The position numbers were made by a program, and so were the translations under genes. Under the pieces are notes generated by a model. That model made no database searches. It saw only the letters and a program-made list of their open reading frames with translations, and was not told the origin of the DNA. This document shows positions 55,560 through 61,968 of a stretch of DNA of 64,000 bases, piece by piece. Where the stretch lies: positions 1 to 64,000 of the forward strand of contig DASUWY010000016.1 in the NCBI GenBank assembly GCA_036378175.1, written 5' to 3'. Source of the DNA: Thermoleophilaceae bacterium. GTDB taxonomy: Bacteria > Actinomycetota > Thermoleophilia > Solirubrobacterales > Thermoleophilaceae. Every line of letters begins with the position of its first letter. Positions within the stretch are counted from its first letter, which is position 1.

Positions 55560-56072
55560 GTGCTTAGAATGCCGACGCGCCCCGGGGTTCGGGCGTCTTT
55601 CGTCATGGACCACGGCACAACCAAGCGCGGGAACTACGAGTCCGGGTCGGACTACGTCCTCGAGTACGGGGAGCTCCGCTTCACCTTCAACGAGCGCGAC
55701 TTCACCGAGCGGGTGGAGCAGGCCGCGATGAAGCTCGGCTTCGTGGGCGGCCCGCTCGGCGCCGAGGAGCGCGAGGACATCGTGAACCTCACCGTGAACG
55801 GCGAGGTGCCGGAGCCGGCGTCCGACCTCGGCCACCACATCAACGCCTGCTGGCGCGAGCTGTCCGGGCCCTCCGAGCGGTCACTCGTGCATTGGCTGCG
55901 CAGGCTCGTGTTCCGCGGGGCGTGGCTCGACCAGCGCGTTAAGGAGGGCGAGCTCGAGATCGTGTTCGACGATGAGACCCACGCCTTCGGCTACGCGCAG
56001 CCGGACCGCGACTGGGAGCTCGTGGAGCTCTCCCCCGAGCCCTCCTGGGCCGGGGTGGCTTACCGCCGCTGA
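55560..56072 (+). CDS. Hypothetical protein, about 170 residues
   Basis: The product contains GNYESGSDYVLEYGELRFTFNERDFTERVEQAAMKLGFVGG (in part: GELRFTFNERDFTERVEQ), ACWRELSGPSERSLVHWLRR and VFDDETHAFGYAQPDRDWEL. It is acidic and soluble, without a recognised domain. GTG 55560 has GGAAGG a few nt upstream; ATG 55569 and ATG 55605 are alternatives. Divergent from the two-component operon. A strong hairpin follows the stop. Confidence 0.65.
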   Translation: MLRMPTRPGVRASFVMDHGTTKRGNYESGSDYVLEYGELRFTFNERDFTERVEQAAMKLGFVGGPLGAEEREDIVNLTVNGEVPEPASDLGHHINACWRELSGPSERSLVHWLRRLVFRGAWLDQRVKEGELEIVFDDETHAFGYAQPDRDWELVELSPEPSWAGVAYRR

Positions 56073-56187: not shown

Positions 56188-57270
56188 CTAGCTGAGCAGG
56201 TCCGCCCGGGTGGTCCCGGACGAAGCGCTGGTCGTGCCGCCGTCAAGCACGATCCGCGTGGTCGCCACGCGCAGTGGCTCCGCGCTCTCGCCCACGGCGG
56301 CGATCACGGTGAGCGAGCCGCCCTCCTCGACCTTGCGAGCAGCGCCGAAGACGCGCCGGGCGACGGCCGAGGGCAGCGCGTCCAGCGAGTCGACCACCAC
56401 AACGGCGTCGCGGCCCTGCTCGACCGCGCGCTTTGCGCGCTCCACAGCCATCTCCGCGACCTGCGCCTGCTCTTCCTGCGAGCCGTCAAAGGCGCCGCCC
56501 GCGACGGTTATTCCGCTCTCGCGCCGCCACTCGGTGACCTCCTCGGGCCGCACGCCCGCGAGCACCACCACGGGCTCGAGCTCGCCGCCTCCGAGCGACG
56601 AGACGATCCGCCGGAGCAGCGATGTGGCACCCGCGCCCGGCGGTCCCGCGATCGCCACGCGGGAGCCCTTGCCGAATGGCGCGTCCAGGCCGTCAGGACT
56701 CGGCAGCCGCTCGGTGGCGAACACCGCCGTGAGGTCCTCGAAGCGCGGCCGGTCGGCGGGCGGCTCCGGCTCCTGGCCGTTCACCGCGTCGATCCGCACG
56801 AGCGACGGGTAGCGTTCCGAGCGCCGCGGCGGCCTCACGGGCCCTGAGATCTCATCGCCGGCGCGCAGCTCGCAGCGGCGGATCTGCGCGGGTGAGACGT
56901 ACACGTCGTCACGCGAGTGCGAGAAAGGATCCGAGCGCATGAAGCCGCTGCCGTTCGGGAGGATGTCGAGCACGCCCGTGCGGACGTCTTCCTCCTCGGG
57001 CTCGGGCTCCGGTTCGGGCTCGGCCTCGGCCTCGGCCTCGGCCTCTTCTTCCTCCTCCTCGGCTTCGCGCTCCTCAACCACGGCCTCCGCCTCGGCGGCA
57101 CGGTCGCGCTCCGGCGGCTCGTCGCCGTCCTCGGGCTGGTCCTTGAGGATCGCCCCGATCAGCTCCTCCTTGCGCATCCGGCGAAAGCCCTCCACGCCGA
57201 GCTCCGACGCGATCGCGTGCAGATCGGCCAGCGGGCTCTGCTCGAGCTCTTTGCGGTCTAGGACTGACAT
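56188..57270 (-). CDS. Rho-like protein with lost ATPase residues
   Basis: A 360-residue Rho homologue (true Rho is usually 415 or more). Order: SAP-like N-terminal domain (ADLHAIASELGVEGFRRMRKEELIGAI), acidic repeat (60-94), an intact RNA-binding cold-shock domain (GVLDILPNGSGFMRS, DVYVSPAQIRRCELRAGDEI, GPVRPPRRSERYPSLVRI), then a RecA-like domain. Walker A is GPPGAGATS: the invariant Lys is Ala215. The catalytic Glu position before RPEEVT is Val240. The Q-loop segment and the region with the arginine finger are missing. It probably binds RNA but cannot translocate. It follows the transaldolase gene by 4 nt. Confidence 0.85.
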   Translation of the reverse strand: MSVLDRKELEQSPLADLHAIASELGVEGFRRMRKEELIGAILKDQPEDGDEPPERDRAAEAEAVVEEREAEEEEEEAEAEAEAEPEPEPEPEEEDVRTGVLDILPNGSGFMRSDPFSHSRDDVYVSPAQIRRCELRAGDEISGPVRPPRRSERYPSLVRIDAVNGQEPEPPADRPRFEDLTAVFATERLPSPDGLDAPFGKGSRVAIAGPPGAGATSLLRRIVSSLGGGELEPVVVLAGVRPEEVTEWRRESGITVAGGAFDGSQEEQAQVAEMAVERAKRAVEQGRDAVVVVDSLDALPSAVARRVFGAARKVEEGGSLTVIAAVGESAEPLRVATTRIVLDGGTTSASSGTTRADLLS

Positions 57271-57274
57271 GTGC

Positions 57275-57970
57275 TCAGTGCGTCGCGGCCGCGCGCGACT
57301 CAACGAGGCCGTTGAGCCATTCGCCGAACTCGGGCCGCTCCTTCCAGTCCGCCGCGAAGCGGTCGATGCCCGCGGTGGTGAGCGGGTGGTCGAGCATCTG
57401 GTGGAGCACCTTGGCCGGCACGGTGGACACCTCGCAACCGAGCCGCGCCGCGGTGACCACGTGCTCCGGGTGGCGCATCGAGGCAGCGAGCACCTGCGAC
57501 GTTGTGCCGCCCGGCCGCAGCGCCTCCACGATCTCGCGCACAACGTCGGTGGAGTTGATCGAGATGTCGTCGAGCCGGCCCATGAAGCAGGAGATGTAGG
57601 TGGCGCCCGCCTCGGCGGCAAGCAGCGCCTGGTTGGCGGAGAACACCAAAGTCATGTTGATCCGGATGCCGTCCTCCGACAGCGCGCGGCACGCGGCGAG
57701 ACCCGCCGTCGAGAAGGGCGTCTTGACGATCACGTGCTCGTGCAGCTCGGACAGCGCACGGCCCTCGGCGATCATGCCCTCCGCGTTGTCTGAGACCACC
57801 TCGGCGGAGACGGGGCCGTTCACGAGGTCGCAGATGCGGCGAATGATGTCGCCGGGATCGCCATCCTCCTTCGCGAGCAGCGAGGGATTCGTGGTTGCGC
57901 CGGAGAGGATGCCCCAGCCCGCGATCTCCTCCACTTCCGCGACGGAGCCCGTGTCGATAAAGAGCTTCAT
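57275..57970 (-). CDS. tal: Transaldolase, TalC/fructose-6-phosphate aldolase type
   Basis: A 231-residue class I aldolase-fold enzyme. Schiff-base Lys83 in VIVKTPFSTAG; FIDTGSVAEVEEIAGWGILSGATTNPSLLAKE (in part: GILSGATTNPSLLAKE) and GIRINMTLVFSANQALLAAEAG are family blocks. Small transaldolases of this type exchange dihydroxyacetone units in the pentose phosphate pathway; some act as F6P aldolases. The ATG overlaps the 2-phosphoglycerate kinase stop (ATGA), so sugar-phosphate genes are co-expressed here. Confidence 0.92.
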   Translation of the reverse strand: MKLFIDTGSVAEVEEIAGWGILSGATTNPSLLAKEDGDPGDIIRRICDLVNGPVSAEVVSDNAEGMIAEGRALSELHEHVIVKTPFSTAGLAACRALSEDGIRINMTLVFSANQALLAAEAGATYISCFMGRLDDISINSTDVVREIVEALRPGGTTSQVLAASMRHPEHVVTAARLGCEVSTVPAKVLHQMLDHPLTTAGIDRFAADWKERPEFGEWLNGLVESRAAATH

Positions 57971-58806
57971 CGGGCCTCCGATGATGACACACGGCTCACA
58001 GAGTCGAGCACGAGGTCCATCAACCGCGGCAGCGCGCGATCGATGCTGTCGTTCTGAATCACTGCCACACCCTCCTCCTTCGCCCGTCCGACGAGGTAGT
58101 TCTGAAGCTTGCGGATCTGCTCGAAGCGGCTGAGGTAGCGCTCCGCGGGCCGGTGGCCGCCGCGCATCGCGAAGTGGCTGCGGTGAAGCTCCTCGTCGTC
58201 GACGCACAGCACCGCCTCGACCGCGACGCAGCGGTCGTGCAGCTCCTCGCGCAGCGCGCCCGGCACGAGATGGATGCCCTCGAGCACCATCGGCGTGCGC
58301 TCGAGGCACGCTCGCTCGACGATCGCCTCGACGCCTGTGGCGATGCTCTCCGCCTGGCGGACGAAGCCGATGAGGTCCCGATCCTCGTCCTGGCCGATCA
58401 CGAGGTCGACTGCCTTGCCCGCCTCGAACGCGGAGTAGTGAACAGCCGGCATGAACTCACGCGAGAAGAATGCCCGGAGCACCTGACGGATCACATCTGT
58501 GGCGATCACGCGCGTGATGCCGAGACGGGCGGCGAGCATCGTGGCGAGCGTGGACTTGCCGACGCCCGTGCTGCCGGCGAGCAGGACCACGAGCGGCCTG
58601 TCGAGGCGGTCGAGCCGCTGCCACTCGTGGAAGCGGCGCACAGCGTCTCCGCCCACCTCCTCGAGGAGGACCTCCTCCACGAGCTCGTTGAGGTCGGCCA
58701 CCGTGATGTCGGACAGCGTGCGCTCGTGAAGACGCCGCTCCACGATGCGCGCGAGCTCGTACGCGCGGTCCGGCGACAGGCCGGACGCCGACAGCGACTG
58801 CGCCAT
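57967..58806 (-). CDS. 2-phosphoglycerate kinase
   Basis: A 279-residue protein. Residues 3-62 look like an ATP-cone (SLSASGLSPDRAYELARIVE, ELVEEVLLEEVGGDAVRRFH), followed by a P-loop kinase: AGSTGVGKSTLATML (Lys84), IATDVIRQVLRAFFSREFMPAVH, GVEAIVERACLERTPMVLEG and GIHLVPG. The layout and these words match archaeal 2-phosphoglycerate kinase, which makes 2,3-bisphosphoglycerate from 2-PG and ATP, the first step of cyclic 2,3-diphosphoglycerate synthesis. AAAGG precedes the ATG. First gene of a kinase-transaldolase-Rho-like operon. Match is by recall of the family, not alignment. Confidence 0.83.
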   Translation of the reverse strand: MAQSLSASGLSPDRAYELARIVERRLHERTLSDITVADLNELVEEVLLEEVGGDAVRRFHEWQRLDRLDRPLVVLLAGSTGVGKSTLATMLAARLGITRVIATDVIRQVLRAFFSREFMPAVHYSAFEAGKAVDLVIGQDEDRDLIGFVRQAESIATGVEAIVERACLERTPMVLEGIHLVPGALREELHDRCVAVEAVLCVDDEELHRSHFAMRGGHRPAERYLSRFEQIRKLQNYLVGRAKEEGVAVIQNDSIDRALPRLMDLVLDSVSRVSSSEAR

Positions 58807-59191: not shown

Positions 59192-60418
59192 TTAGACGCG
59201 GTTGTGGAGCTCGAGCAGTTCTGCGTCCAGATCGGTGTCAATTGCCACTGGACGGTTGCGGAGGAACACCAAGCGGGCGCCTTCCCGCTCGGCACGAACA
59301 GCAACTGTGTCGATCGCGGCTGCCTTGAGCTCGACCAGATAGACGTCGCAGCGCTCCGCGGCCGCGCGATCGAGCTCTCGGTCGAGCTCCGAGCGGCGCG
59401 CGAGCGCTGTGGAAGCCACCACGGGCTCCACCGAGTCCGCGTACGTGGCTCCCGTGGTGAAGAGCGCCACGCGTGCGTCCGGGTGCGGGACCTCCACCGG
59501 CTCGGTCACAAGCGTGCATCGCAGTGAGGGGCAGGGCAGATCGCCGTAGTCGTGGTCGCCCATCAGGAGCGCGAGCCTGCTGCGCAAGAGCGGGTAGATG
59601 CCAAGGCCGCTGAGATCCGCTTCCCGGCCGACGACGCACACCGTCGCGTCCGCCTCGAGCGGCGGGATGCACGAGCCGGAGCCCTCGAAGATGAGCACGT
59701 CCGGTTCGAGCGAGGCGGCGAGGCGCGCGCCATCGGGCACGTTCGACTCGAACGGCTCCCCCGCGAGCCCGCCGCCCACGCGCCGGCAGCCCACTGTGGG
59801 AACGCCCGCCAGCACCGCGTCCTCGAGGTAGTCGGAGGCCGCGTGCCGGCCGTTCATCGCGATCGCGCGCAGGTCGGCGAGGGAGGTGCCGGCTTGCGCC
59901 ACCTGGGGCTCCGCCGGCCCCCCGCGGCCCATCGACACGATCACCGGCGCCACGCCACGCGCGCGGAGCAGCCCGGCCCAGTGCCCGGCCACGGCCGTCT
60001 TCCCGGTGCGCTTGCCGGTGCCGATCACGGCGAGCTTGGGCCCATCGAACTGCACGGGCTCGTAGCGCGGAGGCGTGAGAAGCGTGCCCGGTGCCTCGTA
60101 TGGAAGCCCCGCGTGCAGCGCGAGCGCGGCGAGCCTGAGCTTCACGGGCGGCGGCAGCACCGGCTCGTCCGCCAGATCGACCACTGCCCGCGCGCCCGCG
60201 GCGCGTGCGCCGCGCAGCACCGCCTCCGCGTCGTGCTCGATCGCGAAGCCGTAGTGACGCTCGGGCTCGGCCAGCACCTCACCCCTCACCTTCTCCTCAC
60301 CACCGCAGAACACCACGGCCGAGACGCCGCGCTCACGGTCCAGCCGCTCCAGCGCGTCGCGCACGGCTGCGGGATGGTGCTCGCCATCGATCAGCGCCAC
60401 GACTGGGCCGCGTTCCAT
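59192..60418 (-). CDS. Cyclic 2,3-diphosphoglycerate synthetase
   Basis: A 408-residue protein. MERGPVVALIDGEHHPAAVR, AVVFCGGEEKVRGEV, the P-loop IGTGKRTGKTAVAGHW (residues 132-147), VSMGRGGPAEPQVA, GCRRVGGGLAGEPFESNV, and LIFEGSGSCIPPLEAD fit the archaeal cDPG synthetase, which closes 2,3-bisphosphoglycerate to the cyclic diphosphate using ATP. cDPG is a thermoprotectant and phosphate store in some methanogens. ATG 60418 starts a normal N-terminus; CACAAT lies seven nt before it. With the kinase 0.4 kb downstream it completes the pathway. Confidence 0.85.
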   Translation of the reverse strand: MERGPVVALIDGEHHPAAVRDALERLDRERGVSAVVFCGGEEKVRGEVLAEPERHYGFAIEHDAEAVLRGARAAGARAVVDLADEPVLPPPVKLRLAALALHAGLPYEAPGTLLTPPRYEPVQFDGPKLAVIGTGKRTGKTAVAGHWAGLLRARGVAPVIVSMGRGGPAEPQVAQAGTSLADLRAIAMNGRHAASDYLEDAVLAGVPTVGCRRVGGGLAGEPFESNVPDGARLAASLEPDVLIFEGSGSCIPPLEADATVCVVGREADLSGLGIYPLLRSRLALLMGDHDYGDLPCPSLRCTLVTEPVEVPHPDARVALFTTGATYADSVEPVVASTALARRSELDRELDRAAAERCDVYLVELKAAAIDTVAVRAEREGARLVFLRNRPVAIDTDLDAELLELHNRV

Positions 60419-60441
60419 TTGCGGAATTGTGGCGGCCCGGT

Positions 60442-60819
60442 CTAGCGCGCGTGCTCGAGCTCCCACAGCTCGAGCTGCCTGTCGGGCCCGTGCTCGAGCC
60501 CGTAGTGCTGGTAGAGCTGCAACTCCGCGCCGTCCGAGAGCACCTCGTCGCGGCGAAGCTGGGGTGAGCCCTTGGTGGCGGGCTTCTCGATGTCCACGAT
60601 CAGCGCGCCACCTTCCTCGAAGGCGCCGGCCAGCGGCACCAGAACGGAGCGGAGACCAAAGAGGCCGGTGCGGACCAGGCCGAACATCGGCCGTTGGCTG
60701 TCCTTGTCCACGTAGAGACCGCTCAGACGGCCGATGTGGTCACCTTCGCGATCGAACACGTCCATCCCGGGCCAAGCCCGCGCGTCCTCGATCCCGACTG
60801 CATCCATCATTTGTGCCAT
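60442..60819 (-). CDS. PRC-barrel domain protein
   Basis: A protein of about 122-125 residues with a PRC-barrel: GMDVFDREGDHIGRLSGLYVDKDS, PMFGLVRTGLFGLRSVLVPLAGA, then an acidic C-terminus (DGAELQLYQHYGLEHG). PRC-barrels bind RNA, photosystem or envelope components; the role here is unknown. The start is uncertain: ATG 60819 has GGAG touching it, while the same GGAG is nine nt before ATG 60810, which is a better distance. It lies 23 bp upstream of the cDPG synthetase gene in the same direction. Confidence 0.8.
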   Translation of the reverse strand: MAQMMDAVGIEDARAWPGMDVFDREGDHIGRLSGLYVDKDSQRPMFGLVRTGLFGLRSVLVPLAGAFEEGGALIVDIEKPATKGSPQLRRDEVLSDGAELQLYQHYGLEHGPDRQLELWELEHAR

Positions 60820-61133: not shown

Positions 61134-61175
61134 GTATCGAGTCTCGAGTATCGAGCCACCCGATACTCGATACTC
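61132..61175. terminator. Repeat-based bidirectional terminator
   Basis: GAGTATCGAG occurs at 61132-61141 and 61146-61155; CGATACTCGATACTC (61161-61175) pairs with it, giving a 9-bp stem CGAGTATCG/CGATACTCG with a 7-nt loop. It overlaps the stop codons of both convergent genes. Confidence 0.65.
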
Positions 61176-61968
61176 ACCCCGTAGCGGTTTCGCCAAGCAA
61201 CGCCGCGGACTTTTCATACTCGTACGTCCGCGGATCGAACTGCAGAATCGCTTCTTGCTCGTGGAACGGGTACTTCCGGTAGACGGTCACGCGCTCCGGT
61301 GAGGCCTCGATCACGCCGTAGCAGGGCTTGGTCTTGCCCCGCAGGCGGGTGGTCGACACCGTGCCTGCGTTGACCACGAAGAGGTCCTCGAGGCGCCACG
61401 CGTACGACACGTGCTTGTGCCCCGAGAGCACCAGGTGGCAGTCGGCGCGCTGAAGGCACTCGAGGGCGTCGCCCGCGTCGTGCACCACGTTGCGCTCGCG
61501 GCCGGTCCCCGGCACCGGCAGCAGGTGGTGATGGAGGACGAAGATGCGCAGGTACGCGTCGCCCGCGAAGCACTGCTGTATCCACGGGTAGCGGCCGCGG
61601 CCGATCGTGCCGTGGTCCAGGTCCGGCTCGGTGGAGTCGATCGCCACGATCGACACGCCGTCGATGTGCAGGAACGTGGAGCGGTCGCCGAACAGCTCCT
61701 CGAAGTGGACGTAGCCCACGTTGCGCGAGTCGTGGTTGCCCGGCACCACGATCACCCGCTCGCACTCGAGCCTGTCGAGGTACTCGCGCGCGGTCTGGTA
61801 CTCGGGGCGGAAGCCGTCATTGGTGAGGTCGCCCGAGACGATCACGCAGTCCGGCCTCAGCTCGTTCAGCTCGGCGATCGCGCGCTCGAGCAGGCTGGGA
61901 ACGAAGTGCGGCGACCCGCAGTGCAGGTCCGAGATCTGCGCGATCGTGACGAGGCCGTCGCCGTTCAT
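61174..61968 (-). CDS. Metallophosphoesterase, class III cyclic-nucleotide phosphodiesterase-like
   Basis: A 264-residue calcineurin-type phosphoesterase with all metal motifs: QISDLHCG, VSGDLTND, VPGNHDSRN, HHHLLPV and SGHKHVS. Such proteins hydrolyse cyclic nucleotides or other phosphodiesters; the substrate cannot be fixed by sequence. No signal peptide, so cytoplasmic. It follows glpD in the same direction (15 bp gap) and may be in its operon. Confidence 0.9.
   Translation of the reverse strand: MNGDGLVTIAQISDLHCGSPHFVPSLLERAIAELNELRPDCVIVSGDLTNDGFRPEYQTAREYLDRLECERVIVVPGNHDSRNVGYVHFEELFGDRSTFLHIDGVSIVAIDSTEPDLDHGTIGRGRYPWIQQCFAGDAYLRIFVLHHHLLPVPGTGRERNVVHDAGDALECLQRADCHLVLSGHKHVSYAWRLEDLFVVNAGTVSTTRLRGKTKPCYGVIEASPERVTVYRKYPFHEQEAILQFDPRTYEYEKSAALLGETATG

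Follow-up and report, generated by a model that had tools for sequence, protein, structure and literature searches.

A Rho orthologue with a degenerate motor is the only Rho detected in Solirubrobacterales and is probably kept for a role that needs no ATP hydrolysis

Introduction

Rho, a ring driven by ATP that normally terminates transcription, is a motor conserved widely among bacteria. An alignment of over 1200 species shows conservation of most of its key residues (PMC4499133). In Escherichia coli Rho, the E211A substitution abolishes hydrolysis and leaves ATP binding and oligomerization unaffected, and in Mycobacterium tuberculosis Rho (MtbRho), a genuine ATP-dependent motor, termination requires a hydrolysis-competent site (PMC4499133). 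Among divergent members of the family, the short form covered by the NCBIfam model NF041509 (paralog_Rho2) is described as a second copy. Further afield, the alpha subunits of F1-ATPase have a related RecA fold and offer an analogy for a RecA domain that is retained without catalysis. Here we analyze a gene of the order Solirubrobacterales, located in a 64,000-nucleotide stretch (hereafter the window) of contig DASUWY010000016.1 from a Thermoleophilaceae bacterium, which encodes a Rho orthologue predicted to have lost its motor. We found no description of Rho in Thermoleophilia or Conexibacter, or of a degenerate Rho, in the open literature, which is weak evidence, as most subscription papers were not covered.

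Results

The open reading frame (ORF) at 56188-57270 on the reverse strand is unbroken, begins with ATG and encodes a protein of 360 amino acids with the following layout.

56188..57270 (-): whole gene, predicted motor-dead Rho orthologue of 360 amino acids (ORF, profile searches, sole Rho of the genome)
57127..57249 (-): Rho_N domain, residues 8-48 (Pfam PF07498, 1.8e-13; predicted local distance difference test score, pLDDT, about 96)
56986..57126 (-): acidic Glu/Ala/Pro linker, residues 49-95, mostly of low confidence and likely disordered (sequence; pLDDT <50 at 49-79)
56764..56979 (-): cold-shock RNA-binding domain (CSD), residues 98-169, primary RNA site mostly retained, F62 replaced by Ser108 (Pfam PF07497, 6.5e-28; residue table)
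56191..56760 (-): RecA-like domain, residues 171-360, predicted to retain the fold and to have lost catalysis, truncated after the SGT motif (alignment and predicted structure)
56620..56646 (-): degenerate Walker A GPPGAGATS, residues 209-217, Lys replaced by Ala215 (alignment)
56551..56556 (-): Gly239-Val240, where Asp-Glu with the catalytic glutamate would be (alignment)
56389..56391 (-): Walker B Asp294, retained here and in 41/41 members of the order (alignment)
56191..56220 (-): SGTTRADLLS terminus, with Thr354 at the arginine-finger position and Arg355 adjacent (alignment)

This domain order, Rho_N, CSD and RecA, is that of Rho (TIGR00767 / NF006886), and the likeness to MtbRho, which is also actinobacterial, extends to a hydrophilic insert that separates Rho_N from the RNA-binding domain. 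The Pfam matches to Rho_N and the RNA-binding domain are above cut-off, and the ATPase match is below it (27.1 versus 29.5 bits). Against TIGR00767 the protein scores 222.6 bits, under half of the curated cut-off of 509.45, and against NF041509 it scores 160.9 bits, short of the cut-off of 628 bits. The AlphaFold2 model, which has a pLDDT of 86.5 and a disordered linker, is closest in the Protein Data Bank to structures of Rho (Z 31.2, 1.9 Å over 265 residues), the top match being 7oqh, a further point of likeness to MtbRho. Structural similarity to the F1-ATPase alpha subunits is lower (Z about 22); these belong to a different protein family and work with a catalytic beta subunit, whereas the protein described here has no known such partner.

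The protein was aligned to E. coli Rho, and the positions compared carry E. coli numbers. The roles of E211, K326 and the primary-site residues are backed by published work (PMC4499133, PMC9908020). The alignment bore out two observations of a preliminary description of the gene, namely that the Walker A lysine (K184) is Ala215 and the catalytic glutamate (E211) is Val240. That description had also reported the stretch carrying the R-loop and the arginine finger as missing: the Q-loop (around K283) and the R-loop (around K326), which form the secondary RNA site, are indeed both gaps, but the finger position is present, R366 of the E. coli SGTR motif being Thr354, with Arg355 one residue on. 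The C-terminal tail beyond SGTTRADLLS (approximately residues 373-419 in E. coli) is absent, and the Walker B Asp294 and the RPEE stretch are still present. The CSD, described as well conserved, does retain the equivalents of F64, R66, D78, Y80, E108, R109 and Y110, but it is not untouched because the RNP1 aromatic F62 is Ser108. Sequencing error was ruled out as the source of the losses by the relatives, since a 91%-identical copy showing identical losses is present in an independent assembly from the same genus.

The preliminary description had asked whether the losses are conserved in relatives, and several are. We aligned 41 proteins from the order, which comprises families f1-f4 (f1 includes this protein), and compared them with 33 canonical copies from the class and the phylum. 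K181, K184, E211, R353 and R366 are intact in all 33 canonical copies, and 32 of these have a basic residue at K326. In the order, K181, R366 and the Q-loop are each found in 0/41 members, K184 in 11/41 and E211 in 9/41; K184 and E211 never occur together (0/41), and the R-loop lysine of the secondary site is missing from every member sequence. The lineages differ in what remains. Family f3 retains DERPEE in 9/10 members, together with most of the C terminus, and has Arg (in one case Ala) at K184; f2 retains GK[ST] in 11/13 and has lost the catalytic glutamate; f1 has lost K184, the catalytic glutamate and the tail. In f4 (L057-L061), the RNA-binding residues F62, F64, Y80, E108 and Y110 are lost as well (GFGFLR to GGGRLR), but Rho_N is still strong. 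In a protein tree, the proteins of the order cluster together with support 99, and f3 branches outside f1+f2+f4. The shared losses (Q-loop, K181 and R366) most simply predate the radiation of the order, and those of the Walker A lysine and the glutamate, following the protein tree, would be later and separate events. Because order-wide losses are joined in each lineage by loss of the Walker A lysine or the catalytic glutamate, no member of the order is expected to hydrolyze ATP or translocate RNA, a prediction that is well supported by the aligned residues.

When the whole genome (4.29 Mb, 95% complete) was searched with both the protein and the Rho model, no second Rho came up; the remaining weak matches to the model cover the ATPase part only and most likely represent ATPases of the rotary or flagellar type. 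Similarly, none of 61 related Solirubrobacterales genomes (36 genera) contains a canonical Rho above the TIGR00767 cut-off. Some match to the Rho model was found in 60/61, in most cases one degenerate Rho, and a few poorer assemblies (e.g. G008, G011 and G057) give ATPase-type matches only. The degenerate copy is the only one in the single-contig genomes G004, G034, G047, G052, G165 and G179; likewise, Conexibacter arvalis, Conexibacter sp. CPCC 205762 and the complete chromosome of Paraconexibacter antarcticus have the degenerate copy and no canonical Rho. As positive controls, the same search detected over-cut-off Rho in 8/14 control genomes and 37/150 genomes of the class, and NusG was found in 10/10 genomes searched. 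Given that no member is expected to hydrolyze ATP or translocate RNA, Solirubrobacterales probably lack factor-dependent termination driven by a Rho motor.

The gene is the last of a conserved operon, whose other members in the window are as follows.

57278..57970 (-): transaldolase/fructose-6-phosphate aldolase, upstream operon neighbor (PF00923, 8.2e-53; TIGR00875 above cut-off)
57967..58806 (-): 2-phosphoglycerate kinase (2PGK), operon neighbor (NF003259, 2.2e-77, below its cut-off)
59192..60466 (-): conserved operon neighbor (synteny; no Pfam or NCBIfam match)
61174..61968 (-): calcineurin-like phosphoesterase, at the head of the conserved operon (PF00149, 3.7e-18; synteny)

The product of 59192-60466, which has no family match, is a putative cyclic 2,3-diphosphoglycerate synthetase (cDPGS-like). 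In three sister families from the same class (f6, f8 and f9), an over-cut-off canonical Rho lies downstream of the phosphoesterase, the cDPGS-like gene and 2PGK; the order cDPGS-like gene, 2PGK, Rho was seen in 12/12 canonical loci inspected in these families, and transaldolase or GlpX also occurs in the canonical-rho operon of f9 and f8. The same gene order, with the degenerate rho last, is found in the window and in several f1 and f4 genomes. Orthology was judged by synteny because the placement of the order's group among canonical Rhos in the tree is unsafe, as long branches gather. Since the operon order is common to the canonical rho of the sister families, the synteny indicates that the degenerate gene is the vertically inherited rho of Solirubrobacterales, an orthologue altered in place. 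A small protein without a Pfam or NCBIfam match is encoded convergently to it at 55560-56072 (+); a similar one lies beside the degenerate rho at nearly every locus inspected in the order and is not seen in canonical-rho loci.

The ratio of nonsynonymous to synonymous substitution rates (dN/dS) between the gene and its nearest relative (G000 versus G001) is 0.086, compared with 0.05-0.20 for operon neighbors and 0.03-0.11 for canonical rho pairs; for other pairs in the order, the whole-gene value is 0.24-0.38. Within f1, identity is 0.71 in the CSD and 0.55 in the RecA domain, whereas in canonical Rho the corresponding values are 0.82 and 0.86 (class) and 0.58 and 0.76 (phylum). The pattern of conservation is thus reversed relative to canonical Rho, with the RNA-binding domain now preserved better than the RecA domain, and across f1-f3 the CSD is the most conserved domain. 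With its constrained sequence and predicted Rho fold, the degenerate rho is not junk. Overall, the protein fails the defining motor features of the Rho family. It lacks the Walker A Lys and the catalytic Glu, the Arg finger, the Q-loop and the R-loop, and the C-terminal tail, and has thereby lost the residues required for hydrolysis and for holding RNA inside the channel, yet it is a Rho orthologue by position and fold.

On a wider scale, over-cut-off Rho is present in 251/298 genomes across the phylum. In f5, f7 and f10 of the same class, no Rho was detectable even with a degenerate profile, including in the single-contig genomes G066 and G068; the Rho-less single-contig genomes of this set are 97-99% complete, and the transaldolase loci found in f5 held no rho remnant. 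In f34, a family of another actinobacterial class, 5/5 genomes have sub-cut-off copies only, with an altered Walker A, and 25/29 genomes in the rest of that class are over cut-off. Rho seems to have decayed here a second time and independently, although the protein tree cannot settle this. The sole Rho is altered at Walker A, Q-loop or finger residues in the actinobacterial lineages f34 (L214-L216, L219 and L220) and f56 (L218). Bacilli without rho lose the purine bias of their genes (PMC13323073). A test of this bias in 28 genomes in three groups gave no difference (all-position purine 0.502, 0.499 and 0.498) and was uninformative, because the class is without such bias even with canonical Rho.

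Discussion

Our favored explanation, which we hold to be probable with some reserve, is that the gene encodes a vertically inherited pseudo-ATPase Rho of Solirubrobacterales, kept as an ATP-independent RNA-binding factor. Its Rho_N and cold-shock domains would hold C-rich nascent RNA; the protein, possibly as an oligomer, would act without ATP, so that bound nascent RNA might be covered, or tethered near RNA polymerase, and the pulling step that ends transcription would be absent. Loss of the motor residues in an intact, constrained frame makes a non-motor RNA-binding role, as the preliminary description had suggested, a sensible reading. That description had set against its proposal the pairing of no other rho with measurable ATPase; there is no other rho in this genome, and ATPase activity is not expected.

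Several observations weigh against an RNA-binding factor of this kind. Purifying selection also acts on the RecA domain (dN/dS 0.06-0.37), and a role in RNA binding alone leaves this unexplained. F62 is Ser in nearly all members of f1 and f2, and because f4 has lost F62, F64, Y80, E108 and Y110, the primary RNA site would not be the retained function, at least in that family. In addition, nucleotide binding may persist in some members, as the Walker B Asp is invariant and GK[ST] is kept in 11/13 f2 proteins.

There are two alternatives that we consider unlikely. The first is termination without a motor, in which the protein would bind the elongation complex and nascent RNA and stall or inactivate RNA polymerase allosterically. 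The retention of Rho_N, CSD and the RecA body, and of NusG in these genomes, is in keeping with such activity, and for E. coli Rho, steps that do not depend on translocation have been proposed. However, the dependence of MtbRho on a hydrolysis-competent site argues against it, as does the finding that the productive complex of Thermus thermophilus threads RNA through the ring and engages RNA polymerase via the C-terminal side (PMC9908020), which is truncated here; moreover, f5 and f7 live without detectable Rho. The second, to which we give the same weight, is that the retained function resides mainly in Rho_N or in protein-protein contact and that the cold-shock domain is dispensable. Rho_N is kept in all four families, including f4 without its CSD contact residues, and its identity within the order (0.44-0.65 in f1, f2 and f4; 0.33 in f3) exceeds that in canonical Rho (0.22-0.30), but in f1-f3 no domain is as well conserved as the CSD, and f4 is a single long-branch lineage.

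It is very unlikely that the gene is a relic decaying toward loss, as in f5 and f7. The truncation is graded from f3 through f2 to f1 and Rho has been wholly lost elsewhere in the class, but ORFs are intact in nearly all genomes, the gene persists order-wide, and the closest-pair dN/dS, as low as that of canonical rho, already disfavors a relic. We give still less credence to an ATPase with displaced catalytic residues, for instance with Arg355 as a replacement finger: an Arg occupies the next position in 10/14 f1 and 13/13 f2 proteins, and R212-P-E-E and the Walker B Asp are largely retained, but the shifted Arg is absent in f3, and the protein described here lacks the Walker A Lys, catalytic Glu, Q-loop and R-loop. 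Finally, the notion of a Rho paralogue that antagonizes or joins a true Rho, advanced in the preliminary description, has nothing for it beyond the sequence and can practically be set aside, because the gene is the sole Rho and sits at the orthologous rho locus, leaving an antagonist or hexamer subunit modifier without a target; no second Rho was found in this or any related genome searched, and a true Rho would have to lie in the unassembled 5% of this genome while being missing from all complete relatives.

Returning to the pseudo-ATPase explanation, Rho may have been turned in place from a helicase to a conserved non-motor protein more than once (in Solirubrobacterales and, apparently, f34), which would show a selectable function independent of ATP-driven termination; we regard this broader claim as evenly poised. 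In contrast to paralog_Rho2, a second copy, the Rho of this order is the sole copy, and an order whose only Rho is predicted to be motor-dead separates ATP-dependent termination from any other role of the protein. Genomes of this order that are credited with Rho probably do not use it for termination, with consequences for operon and antisense predictions, and the culturable Conexibacter and Paraconexibacter allow a non-motor role of Rho to be tested directly. Overall, the soil bacteria of the Solirubrobacterales appear to keep Rho for a purpose different from its known motor function.
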